From: a virus
Length of the DNA: 64,000 bases
Direction: 5' to 3' (one strand)
Virus record (IMG/VR): IMGVR_UViG_3300034407_002866
Location: 1 to 64,000 of that record
A program made the translations under genes and the position numbers. This document shows, piece after piece, positions 12,757-60,494 of the stretch (its first letter is position 1; every line of letters starts with the position of its first letter). The notes beneath the pieces are model-generated. The model saw nothing but the letters and a program-made list of their open reading frames with translations, was not told the origin of the DNA and did not search any database.

Positions 12757-13023
12757 TTAAAAAAGTTCTTGCCCAAAATTGCTACCTAACGTATTTTCGA
12801 TTTCAGAAGCAAATTCATTATATCCACCTATATGTTTATTATTCCAAAATATTTGTGGTACAGTTTTAGCATTAGGAACCAATTTAAACATTTCGTTTCT
12901 ATTTTCTGATGTGCCTATATTTTTATATTCGTACTTAAGAGAATAATTTTCAGCTAAAGATTTTGCTTCTTTGCACCAATGGCAATTATCTTTTCCATAT
13001 ATAGTCACTACTATGTCAGACAT
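12757..13023 (-). CDS. Glutaredoxin
   Basis: An 88-residue glutaredoxin: YGKDNCHWCKEAK with active-site C14 and C17, then KTVPQIFWNNKHIGGY (cis-Pro and GG glutathione-binding step). In T4-like phages glutaredoxin or thioredoxin keeps ribonucleotide reductase reduced; NrdA in this window has the usual C-terminal cysteine pair that needs such a partner. Confidence 0.85.
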   Translation of the reverse strand: MSDIVVTIYGKDNCHWCKEAKSLAENYSLKYEYKNIGTSENRNEMFKLVPNAKTVPQIFWNNKHIGGYNEFASEIENTLGSNFGQELF

Positions 13024-19694: not shown

Positions 19695-21392
19695 TTATGC
19701 TTCGCATGCTGCGCAATCATCAGACATAACGCGTTTACGAGTTAGTGATTGCGCCGCGGACATAGAATACGCATAATACAAGCTTTTTACGCCCATTTCA
19801 GCCGCATATAGATATAACGAATTAATATCTTTAACTGTCATGTCTGGATCAAGCATCAAGTTTAAGCTTTGTGATTGGTCAATGAATTGCTGACGAATAG
19901 CTGCCTGGTCAACAATAGTATTAGGACTAATCTCAGAGAATGTTTTAAATACTGCGCGTTCGTCTTCAGTCAAGAACTCAAGATGCTGTACTGAGCCATC
20001 GCGGGTTTTAATAGAGTCCCATACATCAACTGTATCTTGATCTTTAGATACAAGCAATTCCTTAAGATATGGATTGCGAATAGTAACTTTCATTTTCGCC
20101 AAATCTTTAACGTAAGCGTTAGAGAATTCTGGCTCAATGGATTGTGATACTTGCCCAAGGATAAAGCTCGATGATTTTGTAGGAGCAATAGCCATTGTTG
20201 TGGTATTACGCATTCCATAACCTTCTAGCAATTCTGGCTCACCTAATGTCTTAGCCATTTCACGCGAAGCTTGATATGATTTTTCTTGCATTGTTTTAGC
20301 AATTTCAAGATTTAGTTGCGCAGCTTCTTTTGACTCAAAGGAAATCATTTTAGATTGTAAATGCGAATGCCAGCCCAAAATACCAGCACCAAGGGCTCTG
20401 TGTTTCACAGCAAAATCACGAGCACGTTTCATATAGATTTGGCCGGCGGTTTTACGAACAAACTCTTCACATACTGTATCAAGAAACATTGTTAATACTT
20501 CAATAGCATCTGTTTCTTTGATTTCATCCCAATGTAAAACATTAAGAGATGATAGCACACAAGTAAACGTTTCTTCGTGTGAGGATGGCAATGCAATCTC
20601 GGCACACATATTGGAAGCATATACTCGCATATCCTTATCTTTATAAACTTGAGGGCGACCGTTGTTTACGTTATCCGAGAATAGGATATAAGGATAACCA
20701 ATTTCAGAACGACGCTGTAGCACCTTAGCCCACAAACGACGTTTCTCAGGATCGCCTGCTTTCATTTCATCAATGAATTTATTACTAACAGTGATACCAG
20801 TTGTAAGCCCTTGGATAGGATTACCTTCTGTGCCAATGTCTAGAAACTCGTCAGCATCAGGATGCTCAATGTCTTGGTATGCCGCAAAGAAACCGCGGCG
20901 AACTGAACCTTGCGATACAACTGATGCCAAAGTATCATACATCTGCATAAAGTGCACTGAACCTGAAGACTCGCCTGAATCACGAATTGGAGCACCACGA
21001 TGACGAACAGCGCCAAAGTAACCTGACGTACCACCACCGTTTTTCATTAACATACCATTTTCAGCATGACCAAATAGTATTGCTTCCATGCTATCATCGA
21101 TGTAAGAACCAAAGCATGATACTGGTAGTCCACGCTCTTTACCGTAGTTAGCCCAAATAGGAGATGCTAAGGAATAAAATCCACGGCTCATATAATCGTA
21201 AAACTTATCTGCAAAACCATCATATGTAGTTTTACCTGCTTTTGTTTTTGCCATATCCTTAAGGTACCATTCAGCTTTATCAGCAATGACACGAATACGG
21301 TCCTGTGGCTTTTCTTTTTCTTCTAAATAACCACGCGACAAAAATGTCTTTGCGTCATCATTTAGCCAATAGAATTTTTTGTATTTTCTCAT
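19695..21392 (-). CDS. nrdA: Ribonucleotide reductase large subunit (no ATP-cone)
   Basis: A 565-residue NrdA, shorter than the roughly 750 residues of T4 or E. coli NrdA. It has all catalytic parts: C93 and C278 (redox pair), N261-C263-E265 (radical site, NMCAEIALP), the YY pair at 539-540, and a C-terminal CAAC (C560, C563). It starts directly in the catalytic region and lacks the N-terminal ATP-cone. It makes dNDPs with NrdB, whose gene lies 11 nt upstream. TAAGGA precedes the ATG. Confidence 0.9.
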   Translation of the reverse strand: MRKYKKFYWLNDDAKTFLSRGYLEEKEKPQDRIRVIADKAEWYLKDMAKTKAGKTTYDGFADKFYDYMSRGFYSLASPIWANYGKERGLPVSCFGSYIDDSMEAILFGHAENGMLMKNGGGTSGYFGAVRHRGAPIRDSGESSGSVHFMQMYDTLASVVSQGSVRRGFFAAYQDIEHPDADEFLDIGTEGNPIQGLTTGITVSNKFIDEMKAGDPEKRRLWAKVLQRRSEIGYPYILFSDNVNNGRPQVYKDKDMRVYASNMCAEIALPSSHEETFTCVLSSLNVLHWDEIKETDAIEVLTMFLDTVCEEFVRKTAGQIYMKRARDFAVKHRALGAGILGWHSHLQSKMISFESKEAAQLNLEIAKTMQEKSYQASREMAKTLGEPELLEGYGMRNTTTMAIAPTKSSSFILGQVSQSIEPEFSNAYVKDLAKMKVTIRNPYLKELLVSKDQDTVDVWDSIKTRDGSVQHLEFLTEDERAVFKTFSEISPNTIVDQAAIRQQFIDQSQSLNLMLDPDMTVKDINSLYLYAAEMGVKSLYYAYSMSAAQSLTRKRVMSDDCAACEA

Positions 21393-21403
21393 TACATATT
21401 TCC

Positions 21404-22684
21404 TTAAAATAAATCATCTTCAGTGAAAGCTTTTGTTTTCTTTGAATACGCGGTTGAACGCTTAACAAAAAAGTCGACGTTTTTAGTGCTTAAAATTTCT
21501 TCTACAAACCAGTCAGTGCTGCGGACCGCTTCTTCATCTACTTCATACAAAGGCTTCATATCAATTGCTTTGAGTGATTGATTAAAACGGTGCTTTAAAA
21601 ATTCTTTCACTGTTGCTTTAGGTAAAAAGTCTAGATCGTGGTCGCCATAAATCCAATCAACAATTGCTGATTCTGCTTTGAATGCGTCACGGCAAAGACG
21701 ATTGACTTCTGCGTTACTATCTTTATCAAACCAATCTGGGTTTTCTTCACGAATAATATTCACAAGTTCAAACCCAAAACGAGCGTGAATATCTTCTTCT
21801 TTGGATGTAGCTTCAACGGCGTTTGAAATACCTTTGAGTACATTTTTGTGTTTATTGAAAGCCATCATAATAAGGAATTGGCTAAATAACGAAACGTTTT
21901 CCACGAACATCGAAAATAAAATAATTTTATGGAAATAGTCTTTATCATCTGCTGGCGATCCAATTGATTGCTCAAGGTAAGCGATACGCTTTTTCATAGC
22001 AGGCACTTCTACGACTTTTTCAAACTCTTCGTTAAGACCCATGATTTCAATTAAGTTCGAATATGCATCGGCGTGGCGTACTTCTGATTCACCAAATGTA
22101 ATACCGACAGCAGCTACTTCAGGTTTAGGAAAACGATCGCCAATCTTAGACCAAAATGTTTTAACAGCAACTTCGATTTGTGAAATAGCTAACATAGCTT
22201 TCTTTACGATTTCAACTTCAGATGGATCCATTTTGACTTTCATATCTTGAATATCTGAAGAATAATTAAATTCTGTATGTACCCAATATGAATGACGAAT
22301 TGCATCTGTGTATTCAACTAGCTGTGGATACTCGTATGGTTTTAATGCTGCACGTTTACGAAAAATATTCGGTTTGTTATTAAAACGGAAAAGAATATAC
22401 TCACGAGCCAAATCGTGTAAACCCATATCCATAATTACGTTTTCTACTGCTTTATGGACTGAGTCAACATCTACTATAACATCTTTTGGATCATTGTTTA
22501 AAAGCGTTTCCACCTCATCAGTAACTTCGTTAGAAAGATTCTTACTCCTAATTCCAATAGATTTCATTGCCTTAGAAACTGCGGTTTCTATTTTGCTTGC
22601 GTCAAATCCTTCAGTAGTGCCGTCTCGCTTTAAAACATAATTTACTTTTTTGAAATATTCTGGAGTCAAAGAATTTTGTAACAT
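21404..22684 (-). CDS. nrdB: Ribonucleotide reductase small subunit with N-terminal ATP-cone
   Basis: A 426-residue NrdB. Residues about 14-105 form an ATP-cone (VLKRDGTTEGFDASKIETAV ... HDLAREYILFR), normally found on NrdA. The ferritin-like body follows: E171, then E201-V-R-H204 with the radical Tyr at 208, and a later EEDIHARFGF metal-ligand helix. The C-terminus (TEDDLF) fits docking on NrdA. The cone here suggests that dATP control acts through the small subunit, as reported for some bacterial class I enzymes. Confidence 0.9.
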   Translation of the reverse strand: MLQNSLTPEYFKKVNYVLKRDGTTEGFDASKIETAVSKAMKSIGIRSKNLSNEVTDEVETLLNNDPKDVIVDVDSVHKAVENVIMDMGLHDLAREYILFRFNNKPNIFRKRAALKPYEYPQLVEYTDAIRHSYWVHTEFNYSSDIQDMKVKMDPSEVEIVKKAMLAISQIEVAVKTFWSKIGDRFPKPEVAAVGITFGESEVRHADAYSNLIEIMGLNEEFEKVVEVPAMKKRIAYLEQSIGSPADDKDYFHKIILFSMFVENVSLFSQFLIMMAFNKHKNVLKGISNAVEATSKEEDIHARFGFELVNIIREENPDWFDKDSNAEVNRLCRDAFKAESAIVDWIYGDHDLDFLPKATVKEFLKHRFNQSLKAIDMKPLYEVDEEAVRSTDWFVEEILSTKNVDFFVKRSTAYSKKTKAFTEDDLF

Positions 22685-22849: not shown

Positions 22850-23740
22850 TTACACCGCCATATTCATTTTAATTTCTGAATGGTGATTATAGTTAATTAG
22901 TTTAAATAAAGAAGAATCTTCCTTTTTAAAACCAACTGAAAGACGTTCAATTAAATCGAAAGACTCGTCTATTTCAAGAGTTGGAAGCGGATATGGTTCT
23001 CTTTCTAATATTTCCACCAAACTATATGAATGGTCGTTATAGATATGAGCATCGCCAATCGTATGTACATATGTACCAACATCAAGCTTACATTCTCTTG
23101 CAATAATATGAGTAAGTAGTGCATATGATGCAATATTAAATGGAACCCCGAGACCTACGTCTGCAGACCTTTGATACATTTGACAATGTAGTTTTCCATT
23201 GCGTACTACGAATTGTGCCATAACGTGACAAGGAGGTAAAGCCATTGTATTCAATACCATAGGGTTCCAGGCCGACATAATAATGCGTCGAGAATCAGGC
23301 GTTTGTTTAATTTGTTTAATTACACTTAGTACTTGGTCTACACCTCTTGGATCATCCTGATAATAAGAAAACTTTCTCCACTGGGATCCATATACTGGAC
23401 CAAGATCCTTGATGTATTCGTCATTATAATGCCCAAGCTCCACGCCTTGCTTATCAGCATTTGCTGTCCAAATGGTTTTCTTTTTAACCAAATCTTCACG
23501 GTCTTTACCAAATGTAAGTTCGGCTAAACGACGTTCATCAGTACCACCTTCAAGAAACCACAGCAGTTCCCCAACAACTGCTTTCCACGCAAGCTTTTTT
23601 ATGGTGACTGCAGGAAAGCCTTCACCGAGATCAAACTTCATTTGATAACCAAAGATAGAGCGTGTTCCTACACCAGTTCTATCACTTACGTTTTCGCCAT
23701 TTGCGATAATATCATTAATTAGTTTTTTATATTGATGCAT
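22850..23740 (-). CDS. thyA: Thymidylate synthase (ThyA type)
   Basis: A 296-residue ThyA from the ATG at 23740 (TAATG overlap with DHFR). It has NVSDRTGVGTRSIFG at the N-terminus, the active-site cysteine in MALPPCH (C171), RRIIMSAWNP, and the conserved RSADVGLGVPFNIASYALL block. It converts dUMP to dTMP with methylene-THF. The next gene encodes DHFR, as in T4 (td/frd). Confidence 0.95.
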   Translation of the reverse strand: MHQYKKLINDIIANGENVSDRTGVGTRSIFGYQMKFDLGEGFPAVTIKKLAWKAVVGELLWFLEGGTDERRLAELTFGKDREDLVKKKTIWTANADKQGVELGHYNDEYIKDLGPVYGSQWRKFSYYQDDPRGVDQVLSVIKQIKQTPDSRRIIMSAWNPMVLNTMALPPCHVMAQFVVRNGKLHCQMYQRSADVGLGVPFNIASYALLTHIIARECKLDVGTYVHTIGDAHIYNDHSYSLVEILEREPYPLPTLEIDESFDLIERLSVGFKKEDSSLFKLINYNHHSEIKMNMAV

Positions 23741-24213
23741 TATATCTTTTTCCATTTGTCTACATATACTTCACCTTCACGCTCACTACTATATAATTCG
23801 TACGTTAATTCAATTAACGTTTTAGGCAAAAATATTTCACAATCATATACACCATTGATGCGGCTCAACCAAAATTCATCAATAATAGGTAAGTTATTTT
23901 CTATTAAATGGCAACCGCCAATCATCCACACATTATTTTCTTTACTAAGAATGCTCATTCTCGAATTAAAAATATCAGAACGAATTACTTCAATACCTTC
24001 CTGGTGTTTCATAGTATTAGAAACTACAATATTTTTTCTGTTTGGCAACGGTTTGAATGGTAAACTATCCCACGTTTTTCGACCCATAATAACTGTCCCG
24101 TTTAGTGTCGTTTCTTTAAACCATTTTAAGTCAGCTTTGTTATTAGGCCAAGGAAGTTGACCACCTTTACCTATACCCCAATCATCATCACATGCTAATA
24201 TTGCCCGTATCAT
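23740..24213 (-). CDS. folA: Dihydrofolate reductase
   Basis: A 157-residue DHFR starting MIRAILACDDDWGIGKGGQLPW; the ATG at 24213 overlaps the primase stop (ATGA). It has the substrate-loop GIGKGGQLPWPN, TVIMGRKTWDSLP for NADPH, and NVWMIGGCHLIE. It regenerates tetrahydrofolate used by ThyA. Confidence 0.95.
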   Translation of the reverse strand: MIRAILACDDDWGIGKGGQLPWPNNKADLKWFKETTLNGTVIMGRKTWDSLPFKPLPNRKNIVVSNTMKHQEGIEVIRSDIFNSRMSILSKENNVWMIGGCHLIENNLPIIDEFWLSRINGVYDCEIFLPKTLIELTYELYSSEREGEVYVDKWKKI

Positions 24214-25223
24214 GCTTTTCTCCATGCCATTAATTTTAAATTAGCTTCTAAGCTAGTATATGTATTATTACAAATGATTTCTTCAACGTTATTTGCACCA
24301 GCCAATACCATTTCGTTAATATCTTTTGCTGGAACATCAGACGGCCAAATACAAATTTTATTACCGTTACGAATTATTTTTTCCATTCGTTTGTGAATTT
24401 CTTTGTTTCTTGGCTCGGCATCGAATACAAACGTCGCATTAGTTATATTTTGTAGCGCGGCAGTACTACCTTCTGCACCGGCCATCGCTACTGCGTTTGA
24501 AAGAAACATGCTGTCAAGTGCTCCTTCAACTACAAAATATTTTTTATTAAAATCAACTTTATCAAGGCCAAAAATCTTTGGGCGATCGTCAAACATAATT
24601 GTAATATAGCGCATTCCCTTTGGGTCGAAACCTCTTGCTGAAACTCCAAAGACTTTACCTTTTTTATCCACGAATGGTATTACTAAACGAGGCTCATCTT
24701 TTCCAACATTTTCAAATTTATTTGGAATGACACTATTGATCCATGTTTTAAATTTTTGTGCGTAAAACATTCGATAATGATGCTCAGGTGGAATGCCACG
24801 CTTCATTATATATTTTTTTAAAGGATGGTTAACATCCAATTGACTTATCTTTTTAAGTTTTTTTAATGGATTTGTATTAAATACTGGTTTTTCAAATTTT
24901 GTTTTTTCTATTGCCGTTTTTTCTGGTTGTTTTTCACTTACTTTTTTTACAAACTTTTCAGATATGTAATCGTTATAAACTAGGTTATCAACGCTTTTTA
25001 GGAAATATGAAAAAGATTGGCTTGCTCCACAATTATGACAATAAAAATGAAACGTGTTATCTTTTTCTAACAACCATCCTCTAGCCTTTGTTCGTGATGT
25101 TTGCGAATCACCACACGCTGGGCATCTAAAATTTATTTTATATGGGTTTGTAGATCTAACTCGAAAGCGTTCGAGCCTGTTTGATAACAAAGTTGCATAA
25201 TGAAGGTCTACGAAATCTACCAT
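24210..25223 (-). CDS. 61: DNA primase, T4 gp61-like
   Basis: A 337-residue primase. The N-terminal zinc ribbon has FRCPACGDS and FYCHNCGA. The Toprim region follows (KKYFVVEGALDSMFLSNAVA, and VFDAEPRNKEI with the acidic metal ligands). It makes RNA primers with the gp41-like helicase in this window. First in the primase-frd-td run behind the promoter at 25259-25287. Confidence 0.85.
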   Translation of the reverse strand: MVDFVDLHYATLLSNRLERFRVRSTNPYKINFRCPACGDSQTSRTKARGWLLEKDNTFHFYCHNCGASQSFSYFLKSVDNLVYNDYISEKFVKKVSEKQPEKTAIEKTKFEKPVFNTNPLKKLKKISQLDVNHPLKKYIMKRGIPPEHHYRMFYAQKFKTWINSVIPNKFENVGKDEPRLVIPFVDKKGKVFGVSARGFDPKGMRYITIMFDDRPKIFGLDKVDFNKKYFVVEGALDSMFLSNAVAMAGAEGSTAALQNITNATFVFDAEPRNKEIHKRMEKIIRNGNKICIWPSDVPAKDINEMVLAGANNVEEIICNNTYTSLEANLKLMAWRKA

Positions 25224-31022: not shown

Positions 31023-31324
31023 CCGAACTCGTGTCCTGCAACACGTTTCATTTGTTTGTTGAATTCTTCCTGGGAAGGTTTTTCTTTATACAATTTAATG
31101 GAAATTTCAGGACGGTCTTTACCTTTAATTCTCCAATTCATACCTTTTTCTTTGTGCTCTGGTTTTGTAGTTTTGACTACTCTACGCTTATAACCAGCTT
31201 CCCAAGTTTCTGAGCCTTCTGTAACTGCAGTGCTGCATTTACCACAACACTGTTGAGTACCACAGTTTGAATGTTGCTCTTTTAAATTTGGAGTATTTTT
31301 TATATGTTGTTTAAATGATTTCAT
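31019..31324 (-). CDS. Head-tagged cysteine-rich small protein
   Basis: A 101-residue protein starting MKSFKQHIKNTPNLKE, with a Cys cluster NCGTQQCCGKC that could bind a metal, followed by a basic beta-like domain. The (L/I)-x-E step is at residues 14-16 (LKE). Function unknown. Confidence 0.55.
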   Translation of the reverse strand: MKSFKQHIKNTPNLKEQHSNCGTQQCCGKCSTAVTEGSETWEAGYKRRVVKTTKPEHKEKGMNWRIKGKDRPEISIKLYKEKPSQEEFNKQMKRVAGHEFG

Positions 31325-33599
31325 CGTGTTTTACGATATACAATTTACCGTCCCCTGTTCTTATTTTTGCGCGCCCTGTTTCTGAATCGGTTCCTACAAG
31401 GGTTCCTTCTAATTCATCTTTTTCGCCAGTCACATAAGTATGCATAAACTTTATTACATCACCACGGTATATATTTGCATTTAATGCTGCTTCTTCAATT
31501 TCTTGCCCTGGAGTATCTTCTTTATATTTTTTTGTTAAAGCATCAGTACCGTATTCTCTTTTCGATGGAGAATCTTTTTCGTCTTTTGCCTCAACTTTAT
31601 ATCCATATTTTTTAAGAAGTTGATTTCTTTTTAATAAACTTTCAGTGTCTTCATTTTGTGTAAGATCTGCATGCTCGTTATTATATTTTTTAAAATATTC
31701 TGTTTCTAGACGGCGCCCTGGAATTCCAATATTCGCAAGAGTTTCAATTTCTTCAATTACGTCTTTTAATTTTTCGCCATTTAAAATATGATTATGTATT
31801 TTTTCAAGAATTTTATTTAGCATAATTTGTTCATCAAGGTTTAAGAGTTGCTCTTGTCCTGTTGCCAAATCAAACTGTTCCTTTCTAACTTTGTCAGCTA
31901 AGTCTTTGTCTGCTTTTCCCCAGGTTCCTTTACCTTTGGTAGCAAACGAATTAACTCTGGCAAACCCCCATTGTGTTGGGTTTGTTCCTGGGCGATGACC
32001 TGTTCTCCAGGCAGCGACCCCCCTATCAAAAACTGTTTTTAATATACCATATGATATTCCGGTTTTTTCTGCTTTTTTCTTAAGTGCTGCTTTTGGATTT
32101 GATTCCATTAAAACATCAAATTCTTCAGACATAATAAAATCACTCATACCAGAAATAAGTTTTGATATATCTTCGCCAAAGTCCTCGTAGGTTTCACTTA
32201 CAGTGTCTTCTTTTGGCTTGAATATTTTAAACCGCTTGTCAAATTTAACAGAGCCGTTTTTTTCTAAAGCCATATGCGGTCTTTTGCGAATTGGTATATC
32301 AGCGTGTATAGCTTCGCCAAACATATCTTTAAATTTTTTTGTATGAACAGACGGTTTTGTTTTAGCTTCTTTATCACCAGGTGCTGGTTTATATGCATCA
32401 GGATTATCATCGTCCATTTTACCGTACTTGGCAAAATGTCTAGCTCTATCATCTTTTTTATCTTTTTCAACACCTTTGTAATAACCCTTTGGCTGTGAAC
32501 CAGGCATATCTTTTACATCAGGATCTTGAGGTTTTATTGATTTTGATTCTAAAAATAGTTCAAACATATTGTTTATATCATAAACATCTTCATTCTTTTT
32601 TGGATTTAAAACACCAGCAAGACGTTCTTTTTCGGCGGCTCTAACTTTAGGTAAAAGACGAGACGCAATACGATCTATTGTTTTGCCAGGAATTTTTTGC
32701 AATCTTCTATCTAAAGTAATTTTTTCTGCGGTAGACATTTGAGAATACTTTTTATTTTTAGATAATCTATCTTTCATAAAATTAAGAGCTGCTTTTCTAG
32801 ATCTTTTTAATAACTTTTCTTTTGGGGCCATTTTTCTTTTGGATCTTTCACGAGCCATTTTTATTTTTGTTTTATACTTTCTCATTACCAAAGCTTTTTT
32901 ACGTCTTTGTTGAATTGAAAGCGGTTCTCTTTCTGAAAGATTTTGCTCTTCAAGTTCTTCTGTAATATTCATACCTTTACGAACCATGTTCATTATAGAC
33001 ACTGCGGATATTTTTAACTTTTTAGGCAACCCCTGTTTAAAAGAAACAATATTTCCTTTTGCAGCTGACTGTCGCATCTTTGATGCTGACATTCCGGACA
33101 CGCCGTCAGAATCAGGATCTCTTTCACCAGCAGAAACTATTTCGATATTTTCAAAAGTATAATCTAATTCATTATATTTTTTCAAAAGAACTTCAAATTC
33201 TTTAACTCTATCAGACCCAACAACAAGTACAAAATTATTATATTTTTTAGATAATTCTTTAGCTACTTCAATGATTGTTTTTGCTGGTGATTTTTTTACA
33301 ATTCCGCCAAAAGCTTTTTGCCCAAGAGATATTTTTTGATTATAACTCATAGGGTTCTTTTTTGAATCTTGAGAATGTGACATATAAACTGCAGCATCAG
33401 CCTTGCGCTTTACAGCTTCTGTTATTACTTTGTTTATTAATTTTTCGTGTCCAACTGTAATAGGGTTAAACCTACCAAAAGTTATAACCACAGTTTTCTT
33501 CAAAGCCTCGGACATAGTTGGCTTTGTTTCAATATAATCACTAGGATTATGATCTTTTATTTTTTTAAGATCTTTTTTATTTTTTTTCTTCTCAACCAT
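31311..33599 (-). CDS. Large head-associated protein with nucleotidyltransferase domain
   Basis: A 762-residue protein. Residues about 30-215 are a nucleotidyltransferase of the (T/H)xGH superfamily: VVITFGRFNPITVGHEKL and, further on, SGMSASKMRQ (ISSSxxR-like). Basic and linker-like regions follow, and a second domain near 510-590 (KKKAEKTGISYGILKTVFDRG ... NPTQWGFARVNSF), which matches a domain of unknown function in phages. There are several L/I-x-E sites (such as FELFLES), so processing by the prohead protease is plausible. Substrate (NMN, CTP or another) unknown. A TATAAATA late promoter lies 33 nt upstream. Confidence 0.6.
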   Translation of the reverse strand: MVEKKKNKKDLKKIKDHNPSDYIETKPTMSEALKKTVVITFGRFNPITVGHEKLINKVITEAVKRKADAAVYMSHSQDSKKNPMSYNQKISLGQKAFGGIVKKSPAKTIIEVAKELSKKYNNFVLVVGSDRVKEFEVLLKKYNELDYTFENIEIVSAGERDPDSDGVSGMSASKMRQSAAKGNIVSFKQGLPKKLKISAVSIMNMVRKGMNITEELEEQNLSEREPLSIQQRRKKALVMRKYKTKIKMARERSKRKMAPKEKLLKRSRKAALNFMKDRLSKNKKYSQMSTAEKITLDRRLQKIPGKTIDRIASRLLPKVRAAEKERLAGVLNPKKNEDVYDINNMFELFLESKSIKPQDPDVKDMPGSQPKGYYKGVEKDKKDDRARHFAKYGKMDDDNPDAYKPAPGDKEAKTKPSVHTKKFKDMFGEAIHADIPIRKRPHMALEKNGSVKFDKRFKIFKPKEDTVSETYEDFGEDISKLISGMSDFIMSEEFDVLMESNPKAALKKKAEKTGISYGILKTVFDRGVAAWRTGHRPGTNPTQWGFARVNSFATKGKGTWGKADKDLADKVRKEQFDLATGQEQLLNLDEQIMLNKILEKIHNHILNGEKLKDVIEEIETLANIGIPGRRLETEYFKKYNNEHADLTQNEDTESLLKRNQLLKKYGYKVEAKDEKDSPSKREYGTDALTKKYKEDTPGQEIEEAALNANIYRGDVIKFMHTYVTGEKDELEGTLVGTDSETGRAKIRTGDGKLYIVKHDEII

Positions 33600-35940: not shown

Positions 35941-36938
35941 AATTTAAAAGTACCGCCAACATTTAAAATTTTATGTCTAGATATATCATCTTCAACCATT
36001 TCAGATATCATTTTTTCAAATGTATATTCCGGTTCCCAATTTAATGTATTCTTTGCTTTATTTGAATCAGCGTGTAAACTGTGTAATTCGTTTGGCCTTT
36101 GAAATTCTTCATCGGATTTGACATATTGTTCCCAATTTGATATTCCTACAGTTTCAAAAGCTATTTTACATAGATCACGCACACTGTGTTTAATACCAGT
36201 TGCAATAATAAAATCTTCAGGTTTGTCTTCTTGAAGCATAAGCCATTGGGCTTTTACATAATCTTTAGCATGGCCCCAGTCTCTTTCGGCATCAAGATTT
36301 CCTAATACAATTTTATCAGATTTACCTAATGATATTTTTGCTACGCCGTCTGTGATTTTTCTTGAAACAAATTCAATACCGCGTATCGAAGATTCATGAT
36401 TAAAAAGTATACCAGTACACGCAAACGCGTCATAACTTTCACGGTAATTTTTTGTTATATGGTAACCATACAATTTTGCTATTCCATACGGGCTCGCAGG
36501 TTCAAACGGTGTATTTTCTGTTTGTCTTCCGTCTATGTTGCTGTTACCAAACATTTCACTTGTGCCAGCCTGATAAAATTTAGTGTTAGGTTTGATTCGT
36601 CGTATAGCTTCAAGACAATTAAGTGGTCCGATAGCATCAACATGAGTAGTTACATAAGGTAATCTCCATGAACCACCAACAAAGCTTTGAGCTGCAAGAT
36701 TATAAAATTCATCAGGTTTTGCTATTTCCATTACATCCATGATACTACACAGGTCGGTGACATCCCCAATAACAGTTTTAAGACCTTTTTCAAATAAATT
36801 TAAATATTCGATGTTTGACCAATTTGGGCTTGTATATCTTTTTACTAATCCATATACATTATAACCTTTTCCTAAAAGAAGGTCGGCAAGATAGCATGCG
36901 TCTTGTCCTGGGAAACCAGTAATTAAAGCAGTTTTCAT
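35937..36938 (-). CDS. gmd: GDP-mannose 4,6-dehydratase
   Basis: A 333-residue extended SDR: LITGFPGQDACYLADLLLGKG (NAD(P) site), AAQSFVGGSW, GTSEMFGN with the catalytic Thr/Glu equivalents, and SPYGIAKLYGYHI (YxxxK). It turns GDP-mannose into GDP-4-keto-6-deoxymannose, the substrate of the neighbouring DegT-family enzyme, whose start overlaps by 4 nt. Confidence 0.8.
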   Translation of the reverse strand: MKTALITGFPGQDACYLADLLLGKGYNVYGLVKRYTSPNWSNIEYLNLFEKGLKTVIGDVTDLCSIMDVMEIAKPDEFYNLAAQSFVGGSWRLPYVTTHVDAIGPLNCLEAIRRIKPNTKFYQAGTSEMFGNSNIDGRQTENTPFEPASPYGIAKLYGYHITKNYRESYDAFACTGILFNHESSIRGIEFVSRKITDGVAKISLGKSDKIVLGNLDAERDWGHAKDYVKAQWLMLQEDKPEDFIIATGIKHSVRDLCKIAFETVGISNWEQYVKSDEEFQRPNELHSLHADSNKAKNTLNWEPEYTFEKMISEMVEDDISRHKILNVGGTFKL

Positions 36939-38095
36939 TTTATATTCCTTATTACATTTGCTGCCATTTGTATATTATCAGAAAGATCTACACAATCGTT
37001 ACCAATAAAAAAACCATCAAAATGTAATTTATCAGTTCCAGTAAAATCTCCAACACTATCCCAATTTAATCGGTCTATTACAGGATTGCGCATAAAGTTT
37101 CCTGCTACGATAGGGCGTGTTTCAACACCGTTTTTCGTGAGCTCTTCAATTACCATTTTTCTTTTTCCGGCTAAATCACCTTCAAGAACTAGTCCAAAAC
37201 CAAACCAACTGCTTTTTTCGTGTTCATCTTGTAATCTTATATTAGGAACATCTGCAAAAACCTTTTTTGCGATTTCAGCATTCTTTCTTCGATCTATCAT
37301 CATCTGCGGCCATTTTTTTAATTGCTCTTGGCCAATAGCACCACTCATTTCGAGTGGTCTTACACAATACCCGGGTAATATAAACTTGAAACTGTCTTCA
37401 AATGGATCACCGGATTTTGCAAACAAAGGATCATCTGAAGTGCTATCTCTTATCCACCCGTGAGCTCGTAGGCTCTTTAAATATTCATAGGTGGTATCGT
37501 CATTAGTAAGAACCATTCCGCCTTCCATAGTTTGCATGTGGTGGCTAAAGAAAAAACTAAAGGTACCCATTTCTCCAACAGATCCGCAGTGCTTATTGTA
37601 TTCTAATGCACCTAAGCTTTCGCAATTATCTTCTAATAAGGTAATGTTTCGCTTATCACATATCTCTTTAATTTTGTTGAGTTCTGCTGGATTACCTAAA
37701 AGGTTTACAACAAAAACAGCCGCCGTGTTTTCATCAATAGCTGCCTCTACTTTACTAGGATCTATGTTAAACGTATATGGGTCAACATCAACAAATCGAA
37801 TAGTATAACCTAATTGGTGTATTGGAAAATAAGTTGTGCTCCAGCTTACGGCCGGTACAATAATATTCCCTTTATTTTTATATTTTGGATTTAATGCGAG
37901 AGCTGATATAGTAATAAGATTAGCACTACTTCCGCTATTTGTCATAACAGCATGCTTGCTTCCAAAAAATTCGGCAAATTGGTTTTCGTATTTCTTTACT
38001 TCTTCACCCATCGTGTACTTACCACTTGAGATTACTCGATGAATAGCGTTAACTTCTTCATCACCCCAGGTATCACTTGCTAATTTATATTTCAT
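36935..38095 (-). CDS. DegT-family PLP enzyme with His for Lys; ColD/RfbH-like dehydratase
   Basis: From ATG at 38095 (GGA spaced well, one base past the upstream stop region) the protein is 386 residues of the DegT/DnrJ/EryC1 fold (MTNSGSSANLITISALAL; LLEDNCESLG). At the PLP-lysine position it has SFFFSHHMQTMEGGM: the Lys is replaced by His (H185 in this numbering), as in the 3-dehydratases ColD and RfbH. With Gmd this predicts GDP-4-keto-3,6-dideoxymannose, the colitose precursor, rather than a perosamine-type amino sugar. Confidence 0.7.
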   Translation of the reverse strand: MKYKLASDTWGDEEVNAIHRVISSGKYTMGEEVKKYENQFAEFFGSKHAVMTNSGSSANLITISALALNPKYKNKGNIIVPAVSWSTTYFPIHQLGYTIRFVDVDPYTFNIDPSKVEAAIDENTAAVFVVNLLGNPAELNKIKEICDKRNITLLEDNCESLGALEYNKHCGSVGEMGTFSFFFSHHMQTMEGGMVLTNDDTTYEYLKSLRAHGWIRDSTSDDPLFAKSGDPFEDSFKFILPGYCVRPLEMSGAIGQEQLKKWPQMMIDRRKNAEIAKKVFADVPNIRLQDEHEKSSWFGFGLVLEGDLAGKRKMVIEELTKNGVETRPIVAGNFMRNPVIDRLNWDSVGDFTGTDKLHFDGFFIGNDCVDLSDNIQMAANVIRNIK

Positions 38096-38097
38096 TG

Positions 38098-38982
38098 TTA
38101 ATTTCCGATCCATTGTCTATTTCTATTAATAAAATTAAATGTTTTGACATTTCTAGCTTCTGCCAGTGTATATTGCCCATTAGCCAAACTACCGAATAAT
38201 TGTTTTCTATCTTTTTCTTGTAAGTTTTCAATTTGGGAAATAGAATGAGATAATGGATATGCTGGACACATTTTATCGCATATAACTGGAATTCCTAGTC
38301 TTAATGCGTCTAGTGCTCCTGAACTATTAAACGCAATAACACAATATGCGTTTTTTAATTCTTCTTCAAAAGATGTATCATTTTTAACTTGATGTTTTGG
38401 TCTAACTGAGTCATATGATAATTTATCAAGAACCCAAGGAGAGGACTTTCTCCTTATAACAATAGGGCGATCTGTGTATTTTTTTAATGTTGTAATTACA
38501 TTTTTTTCCCATTTTCCTTTATCAAAAACCTGTGACACAACATCACTGGGCGGTAGTATAACAATATTTTGCTTATTTTTAAAATTGTAGTTTTCAAAAT
38601 TAACATTAAAGTTAGAATTATACCTGTCGTGATCTATTTCAGAAAGGATTGCATTTTGTACAAAGCCATTTTTTGTAATTCGCATCCAATATGGATTTTT
38701 ATATCCTCGATTGAAATATGCATGGTCAATGTAATAAAAATCAATATTATGTTGCTTCGCCAATTGAAATAAATGTGCGTTTCCACGAAGCATGCCCGCA
38801 AATATAATTGCGTTTACTTCTTTTGGCAAAGGGCGTGGTCTAATACTAGGCGGTACCTGACTGTTACCTTTTGACTTCGCTAAAAAATGTTTTGTCCAAA
38901 TTGTTTTTGCGCCAACCGAAGCCCCAAAATACTTTACGTAAATGTCCTGTTCTTTTTTGCCTGTCAGAAATGAATATATCAT
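38098..38982 (-). CDS. Glycosyltransferase / capsule-export-like protein, GT-B (KpsC-like)
   Basis: A 294-residue GT-B-like protein: KYFGASVGAKTIWTKHF, then RPIVIRRKSSPW and CVIAFNSSGALDALRLGIPVIC, the nucleotide-sugar binding region typical of KpsC-like enzymes. Similar regions occur in the products at 39767 and 41222. Confidence 0.55.
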   Translation of the reverse strand: MIYSFLTGKKEQDIYVKYFGASVGAKTIWTKHFLAKSKGNSQVPPSIRPRPLPKEVNAIIFAGMLRGNAHLFQLAKQHNIDFYYIDHAYFNRGYKNPYWMRITKNGFVQNAILSEIDHDRYNSNFNVNFENYNFKNKQNIVILPPSDVVSQVFDKGKWEKNVITTLKKYTDRPIVIRRKSSPWVLDKLSYDSVRPKHQVKNDTSFEEELKNAYCVIAFNSSGALDALRLGIPVICDKMCPAYPLSHSISQIENLQEKDRKQLFGSLANGQYTLAEARNVKTFNFINRNRQWIGN

Positions 38983-60067: not shown

Positions 60068-60098
60068 TACATTTTTTCCTCTGTTATTTAAAATAATT

Positions 60099-60126
60099 GC
60101 AACGCTTCTGTTACTAGGTGCGTTGC
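60099..60126 (-). terminator. Hairpin at the 3' end of the tmRNA coding piece
   Basis: GCAACGC / GCGTTGC stem (60126-60120 with 60105-60099) followed by AATTATTTT. It may be a weak terminator; CAACGC could instead pair with GCGTTG at the start of the acceptor piece to join the two RNAs. Confidence 0.5.
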
Positions 60127-60142
60127 CAACCCTCACATACCT

Positions 60143-60184
60143 TTAGGCTGCTAATGCCATTTTTGGCGCTCTATTTGCGTTTGC
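60143..60184 (-). other. tmRNA proteolysis tag frame
   Basis: Resume codon GCA, then the tag ANANRAPKMALAA and stop TAA. The A-N-x-N-x-A start and -LAA end match alphaproteobacterial tags (for example, ANDN...LAA/VAA types) and the ClpXP end signal. Confidence 0.85.
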
Positions 60185-60414
60185 ATTTAGAAAGTTTGAC
60201 CAATAACGCAGTCATCCGGTAAACTCCACTTCCACTTCCACACCTGTCGATCCCATTTCAGCCCCATCAAAGATACACTGCCAACCGCAGCAGGCGATTT
60301 CGTTGGCTATGCCCAGAACAATGTTCCTGTTTAAACAGTGTATCTATGGTGGAGCTGCCCGGTATCGAACCGGGGTCCAGTATGTGTCCACGTTGCTTCA
60401 ACGCTTACTAATTA

Positions 60415-60443
60415 TATATAATCCATTGTAGTCCAAATGTCAA
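60415..60443 (-). promoter_or_regulatory. Sigma70-type promoter of the tmRNA
   Basis: TTGACA (60443-60438), 17-nt spacer, TATATA (60420-60415); a TATAAT lies 4 nt further on. Same type as the early promoters. Confidence 0.75.
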
Positions 60444-60494
60444 CTATTTATTTAAATAACTTAATGTGTTACTATTATGTTACTATTATGTTAC

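Follow-up and report, generated by a model that had tools for sequence, protein, structure and literature searches.

Of the 87,134-base IMG/VR virus record IMGVR_UViG_3300034407_002866, the first 64 kb, hereafter the window, carry two adjacent genes for a ribonucleotide reductase (RNR) that is almost certainly of class Id and that carries its ATP-cone on the radical-generating beta subunit, NrdB. The record may itself be a genome fragment. The arrangement is already known, and the cone type is a variant seen consistently across a phage clade that is largely uncultured. The explanation that we consider best as a whole, with a probability of roughly 0.45, is that the cone would act as a switch between ATP and deoxyadenosine triphosphate (dATP) at its inner nucleotide site, that its outer site is crippled and that dATP would induce an inactive oligomer of the beta subunit. 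The parts of the locus on which the argument rests are as follows.

21404..22684, minus strand: nrdB, the radical-generating subunit with an N-terminal ATP-cone, 426 amino acids (open reading frame, ORF; Pfam ATP-cone and Ribonuc_red_sm; best PDB match 5olk)
19695..21392, minus strand: nrdA, the catalytic subunit without a cone, 565 amino acids (TIGR02510; best PDB match 6dqx; catalytic motifs)
22379..22639, minus strand: the ATP-cone, NrdB residues 16-102 (PF03477, 59.2 bits in the protein and 62.2 bits on the genome)
21407..22348, minus strand: the NrdB core of class Id, residues 113-426 (metal-site and class Id positions matched to Leeuwenhoekiella blandensis; VIA-align)
22454..22456, minus strand: the codon of His77, which is Gln72 in L. 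blandensis-type NrdB cones (alignment)
22361..22387, minus strand: the short cone-core junction, Arg100-Phe108, from which the arginine at the position we call +7 is absent (alignment and the end of helix 4 in an AlphaFold2 model)
21393..21405, minus strand: the nrdB-nrdA junction, with AAGGA overlapping the nrdB stop codon (read from the sequence)

An earlier note on this DNA had placed and described both ORFs exactly, as a short NrdA that starts without a cone and keeps its catalytic residues, and an NrdB with an N-terminal cone; our analysis agrees on each point. In NrdB the cone match (E 5.9e-16, against a cut-off of 25.8 bits) is followed by Ribonuc_red_sm at residues 113-383 (Pfam, 189.8 bits). 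A Pfam scan of NrdA gave the barrel and all-alpha domains and no match to PF03477, and a profile scan of the 87-kb record found no second ATP-cone besides that of NrdB. Residues 4-565 of NrdA match the NCBIfam family NrdE-prime with 755 bits (cut-off 602) and include C93, N261-x-C263-x-E265, C278, Y539-Y540 and C560-x-x-C563, to which we assign the catalytic roles of the E. coli NrdA motifs. The best PDB match of NrdA, 6dqx, is an RNR alpha chain, presumably the class Id alpha of Flavobacterium johnsoniae, whilst that of NrdB is 5olk, the L. blandensis NrdB with its cone (E 3.5e-143; 6cwo follows at E 9e-88). The metal and class Id positions of the window NrdB (E171, K175, W178, E201, H204, Y208, E262, T293, E297 and H300) map one to one onto L. 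blandensis. The AlphaFold2 model of NrdB has a mean predicted local distance difference test score (pLDDT) of 79, and 5olk is its top Foldseek hit. In VIA-align it reaches Z 40.1 to 8dq3 and 39.7 to 6sf5, and the nine top rows (Z 36.5-40.1) are all class Id NrdB. The root-mean-square deviation of the model from 5OLK is 16 Å over 386-394 residues, and about 2-3 Å for core-only matches; the linker, residues 105-116, has a pLDDT below 50 and thus the geometry of the neck is not settled by this model. Our class assignment therefore follows from the TIGR02510 match, the 5olk match, the class Id structure rows and the mapped metal-site positions. Class Id enzymes carry a Mn(III)Mn(IV) cofactor and no tyrosyl radical, and the window enzyme would be predicted to do likewise. 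As a separate observation on nrdA, an intein-like sequence breaks the gene at or beside the catalytic cysteine (C263 in the window) in the relatives L057, L063, L075 and L078; the arrangement is one continuous frame in L063, two split frames in L078, and in L057 and L075 a pair of frames that flank a separate ORF. Phage nrdA genes with split inteins have been described.

Cones on NrdB have been described before, and the bacterial precedent cited in the earlier note, in which dATP acts through the small subunit, is indeed the nearest solved relative, the class Id NrdB of L. blandensis. A 2018 eLife paper (PMC5794259) put the number of NrdBi proteins in RefSeq that have an N-terminal cone at 93, "encoded by viruses and bacteria". 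In a phage collection, 70 of 669 matching records covered at least 80% of our query, with Staphylococcus and Sporosarcina phages leading. Since viruses are already among its owners, and the phage collection matches too, the cone-on-NrdB architecture is not new. The L. blandensis RNR (5OLK) resembles that of the window in its N-terminal NrdB cone, its cone-less NrdA and the order of nrdB before nrdA, and it shares the class Id metal-site residues (E170, K174, W177 and Y207); its NrdB binds two dATP per cone and forms a dATP-induced beta4 tetramer (PMC5794259). In the window NrdB, by contrast, Arg102 has no counterpart, Arg98 is replaced by Asn, Gln72 by His and Asp73 by Lys, and the junction is shorter by four residues. 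The NrdB of Facklamia ignava, a glutaredoxin-cone-NrdB fusion, also has a beta-linked cone, and it is reported to form a dATP-induced beta4 and to bind two dATP but one ATP (PMC6187632), whereas in the window the glutaredoxin domain lies in a separate ORF. The NrdBs of Silviavirus, Sciuriunavirus and Sporosarcina phages likewise carry a cone and are about 47-49% identical to ours over 96-98% of its length (among the 60 rows listed). However, the 3/3 that were fetched have a 13-residue junction with the +7 Arg, and therefore these Firmicutes phage NrdBs are of the L. blandensis type. Lastly, the class Ia RNRs of E. coli and T4 have a cone that binds ATP and dATP, as is predicted for the window, but it sits on NrdA, and the T4 enzyme is reported to be without dATP inhibition.

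We aligned 227 NrdBs and took the junction as running from the YR of helix 4 to the IF at the start of the core. The cone is absent from 6 phage rows, and the other 221 fall into two classes with nothing between them. Type 1 has junctions of 13 residues and comprises 81 rows, of which 78 are genome loci and 3 are Firmicutes phages. Type 2 has junctions of 9 residues; its 140 rows are the window, Salicola phage SCTP-2, 136 IMG/VR loci and the contigs L092 and L104 from bacterial bins. At 90% identity, 62 type-2 rows are non-redundant; 46 type-1 rows were compared with them. The types are defined by junction length, which therefore carries no independent weight, unlike the +7 residue, residue 77 and the clade, none of which enters the definition. 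The +7 residue, seven positions after the YR of helix 4, is Arg in 81/81 type-1 rows and Ile, Val or Leu in 140/140 type-2 rows. It is also Arg in all 30 non-NrdB cones that reach the end of the model (NrdD-like, NrdA-like and unidentified), 15 of them from a set of 24 loci and 15 from another sample; in that set eight NrdR-like or E. coli-like cones, whose match stops short of the model end, could not be assessed and L251, a duplicate of L243, was dropped, and the statement does not extend to NrdR cones or those of E. coli type. ORFs of about 450 amino acids from Bacteroidota (L268, L269 and L271-L281) have an N-terminal ATP-cone as well, with the +7 Arg in the 4/4 looked at (L268, L269, L271 and L272).

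These counts are not independent samples: one ranking of loci was by likeness to the cone-bearing window NrdB, with the best 80 kept each time, and one locus (L002) has an NrdB identical to that of the window. A second ranking, by the NrdB core alone and again with the best 80 kept each, gave 225 loci (L361-L585), of which 193 have the 9-residue link, 6 the 13-residue link with Arg, and 24 no cone, two more (L492 and L538) being cut off. Many of these contigs overlap the earlier sample, and 114 of the 9-residue cones are distinct. No cone was found in another frame of the 24 cone-less loci. The junction variant is undescribed in the literature passages covered, which is not proof of absence. 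Two of the type-2 contigs deserve separate mention. L092 (FZLS01000020.1, Rhodobacteraceae bin) has an nrdB 88% identical to that of the window and is therefore probably phage DNA in a bacterial bin, and L104 (DDIC01000074.1, Bacteroidetes UBA1860 bin) has its type-2 NrdB near a superoxide-dismutase-like ORF (PHROG 1975) and may be viral or chromosomal.

The residues of the inner nucleotide site are kept. The window cone has the Lys-Arg of the hairpin and the Lys of helix 1, and across the non-redundant type-2 rows K19 is found in 62/62, R20 in 61/62 and K31 in 61/62. Residue 77 is His in 61/62 of these rows and in 109 of the 114 distinct cones of the core-ranked sample, and Gln in 46/46 type-1 rows. 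We tentatively equate this with the position of E. coli His59. In E. coli that histidine tells dATP from ATP (PMC11447812). At the outer site the +7 Arg corresponds to Arg102 of L. blandensis, the single protein contact of the gamma-phosphates (PMC5794259), and to Arg91 of Prevotella copri NrdD, which in the dATP form is reported to bond to the outer nucleotide through its gamma-phosphate. A second position, +3, equals L. blandensis Arg98, E. coli Lys91 and Aquifex aeolicus Lys88 by spacing from the stacking aromatic; it is Asn in 46/62 and His in 13/62 type-2 rows, and Asn103 in the window. Moreover, helix 4 stops at residue 103 in the AlphaFold2 model of the window NrdB, and in a control model of L. 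blandensis it runs to residue 101 (counted from residue 4, so that 3 must be added), three equivalent residues longer. Judged by these residues, the window cone departs from the two-dATP type of L. blandensis and P. aeruginosa, its outer site being at least altered. The earlier note had made its dATP brake depend on the nucleotide-binding residues of the cone; this holds for Lys19, Arg20 and Lys31 of the inner site and fails for the outer one, where the Arg is absent and the Arg98 position is Asn. A dATP brake in the phage NrdB is thus plausible, but because the outer-site Arg is gone it is unlikely to work simply by the L. blandensis mechanism.

Purifying selection acts on the cone. We took 25 disjoint type-2 pairs and dropped 2 in which the synonymous rate of the cone was saturated; in the 23 usable pairs the median ratio of nonsynonymous to synonymous rates (dN/dS) is 0.078 for the cone, with a maximum of 0.30, and 0.036 for the core. 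Being common to homologues and held by selection, the cone pattern is not a product of chance. The patch through which cones pair is also preserved. The published L. blandensis interface consists of Met80, Ile92, Lys89 and residue 76 (PMC5794259), the last given as Asp76 in the 2018 paper and being Glu in the L. blandensis sequence aligned here. In type 2, M85, I97, E81 and R or K94 are each found in 62/62 rows, and the equivalent of L. blandensis Ile93 is Leu, Ile or Val in 55/62. The kept patch together with purifying selection favours a working switch that may still be able to pair its cones.

Taken together, we propose the following mechanism. The cone would read ATP against dATP mainly at the inner site, through Lys19, Arg20 and Lys31, His77 being placed close to the ribose. 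In the presence of ATP, beta would remain a dimer and enter the active alpha2-beta2 complex. With dATP, cones would pair through helices 3 and 4 (Met85, Ile97 and Leu98, and Glu81 with Arg94), and the paired cones would tie beta up in an inactive oligomer. The outer site would be crippled, with helix 4 cut short and the phosphate-binding Arg gone; one dATP per cone is therefore expected, a second binding at most weakly, on a cone held by a shorter neck. The parts of this proposal differ in strength. That the window cone binds nucleotide is very probable, and it most likely binds adenine nucleotides and switches activity chiefly via the inner site. Inhibition of the window enzyme by dATP is probable, occupancy of each cone by one nucleotide is slightly less so, and pairing of cones as the means of inhibition we put at even odds.

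Several observations weigh against this proposal. The aromatic that stacks on the outer base (Tyr or Phe99) is kept in 62/62 type-2 rows, and therefore an outer nucleotide may still bind. The +3 position is Gln in 27/46 and Arg in 15/46 type-1 rows, so that L. blandensis Arg98 is not general and only the +7 Arg divides the classes. Asp73 of L. blandensis, a salt-bridge partner, is Lys78 in the window, and Asp is found at this position in 19/62 type-2 rows. Two cone-less relatives (L473 and L494) lie inside the type-2 clade of the NrdB core tree. Lastly, the cone of the T4 class I RNR binds dATP and yet dATP cannot inhibit that enzyme (PMC3267527), and so neither the patch nor the selection results show dATP inhibition. 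The same report undoes the contrast drawn in the earlier note, that the phage brakes by a different mechanism from T4, which presupposes a brake in T4.

The strongest alternative is an ordinary switch of the L. blandensis kind, with two dATP per cone and the same beta4, in which the lost Arg is replaced, for example by Lys104 or by Lys110-Arg111. Conservation of the hydrophobic cone-cone patch and of the stacking aromatic would fit it, as would the cone trees, in which a clade of type-2 cones with seven L. blandensis-like type-1 cones is not rejected (approximately unbiased test, p-AU 0.122, third tree). We nevertheless regard it as unlikely, since there is no basic replacement specific to type 2: position 104 is M in 25, K in 14, Q in 12, R in 9, A in 1 and S in 1 of the 62 rows, and Lys110-Arg111 also occurs in type 1. 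The shorter helix 4, the shorter junction and the change of Gln72 to His speak against it too.

The history of the cone was approached through trees of the core and of the cone. In the core tree (51 rows, seven distant phage rows including L087 having been left out beforehand) type 2 together with the cone-less L473 and L494 forms a clade with support 99/99; in an earlier quick core tree, type 2 without L087 grouped at 97 and L087 stood apart on a long branch. No cone was found elsewhere in the L473 and L494 loci. On this phylogeny the cone marks a phage lineage and, if present from the start, would have been lost in at least one member. The cone trees are built on 88-90 columns and have long branches, and the third omits five long-branched or compositionally odd rows. 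In the three of them a single origin of all NrdB cones, with types 1 and 2 as one clade, is rejected (p-AU 0.0104, 0.0475, the latter just, and 0.0063), and type 2 as one clade is allowed, yet not recovered (p 0.273, 0.362 and 0.452). In the second tree seven non-NrdB cones fall on the same side as the type-2 cones (97/90): five of the six phage NrdD cones and two from other genomes. The remaining NrdD cone (L316) lies with L. blandensis in the first and second trees. These trees suggest a separate capture of the cone by the lineage of the window, and because the grouping with L. blandensis-like cones is not rejected they may do no more than suggest it.

Phage NrdD cones also lead the cone-only matches (best 40 of 364), with Ahp1 at 39.3% (E 1e-8) and phiTE at 39.6% (E 1e-7), and the Salicola phage NrdB comes behind them at 37.1% (E 8e-6). 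The cones of phage class III NrdDs (phiTE, Ahp1, phiWec189 and others) share the helix-3 His in 4/6 fetched, but belong to another enzyme and keep the +7 Arg in 6/6 fetched. A 2022 paper (PMC9669993) ties an order of nrdB before nrdA to capture of the cone, nrdB having been inserted into an nrdA that bore one. In the window nrdA follows nrdB 11 bp on, with AAGG a few bases 5' of each gene, and nrdA comes first in just 1 of the 222 loci in which it was found (L145). However, the order is nrdB-first in 31/31 cone-less relatives with nrdA in the locus (6/37 have no nrdA there). Therefore, gene order alone fails to explain the fusion, and we reject it as evidence for an insertion origin here. A bolder account would be that the lineage acquired its own cone apart from the bacterial NrdB cones, perhaps from a phage NrdD, and rebuilt it as a one-nucleotide switch on a short neck, dATP disabling the radical subunit through a beta oligomer unlike that of L. 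blandensis. We hold this doubtful, somewhat more so than the L. blandensis-type switch; if true, it would be a further allosteric design for dATP control of the radical subunit.

Less likely again is a cone that binds nucleotides but has no dATP brake, as in T4, and that may serve only for activation by ATP or for stabilising the complex. Here T. brucei provides a precedent beside T4 (PMC3267527), escape from dATP inactivation has been argued to suit fast lytic phages in work on virioplankton RNRs (PMC6370689), and the cone is missing from the relatives within the clade named above. Set against it are the low dN/dS of the cone, the near-constant His77 and the kept published patch, although neither selection nor conservation shows inhibition as such. 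Lastly, a decaying remnant without function is highly improbable: the cone does evolve faster than the core (identity to L092 72% over 87 cone columns and 95% over 321 core columns), but dN/dS is below 0.31 in 23/23 usable pairs and the ligand residues are near-invariant over the 62 rows, and so we reject decay.

The phage looks like a marine T4-type myovirus by its gene content. It has UvsX-like and DnaB-like genes, and the ten helicase matches listed all belong to Methylophilales phage Melnitz or to Synechococcus phages (51-55% identity). Elsewhere in the window we located the following.

22850-23755, minus strand: thymidylate synthase, a neighbouring gene of deoxynucleoside triphosphate (dNTP) synthesis (Pfam PF00303)
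23740-24225, minus strand: dihydrofolate reductase, a neighbouring dNTP gene (Pfam PF00186)
12829..13008, minus strand: a glutaredoxin domain (PF00462, 49.2 bits, E 5.4e-14), a possible candidate for the reductant of NrdA
31311-33599, minus strand: a 762-amino-acid ORF with a cytidylyltransferase-like domain and DUF5824, possibly a gene of NAD or nucleotide metabolism
36935-38113, minus strand: an aminotransferase-like phage protein (PHROG 3139)
60096-60447, minus strand: a permuted transfer-messenger RNA (tmRNA) of alphaproteobacterial type (Rfam RF01849, 90.2 bits; RF04321, 115.7 bits)

The tag of this tmRNA according to ARAGORN is ANANRAPKMALAA, and the tmRNA type hints at an alphaproteobacterial host or donor of the phage.

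ATP-cones turn dNTP synthesis on and off, and in the literature covered their mode of action on the radical subunit has been worked out for two enzymes. The phage clade described here amounts to a natural deletion in one half of the nucleotide site, maintained under purifying selection, and can therefore test whether the outer nucleotide is needed for inhibition by dATP. The clade is also relevant to the question whether feedback control of dNTP synthesis is of any use to a lytic phage: T4 has a cone but no inhibition by dATP, and the NrdAs of cyanopodoviruses and cyanosiphoviruses have no cone (PMC6370689).

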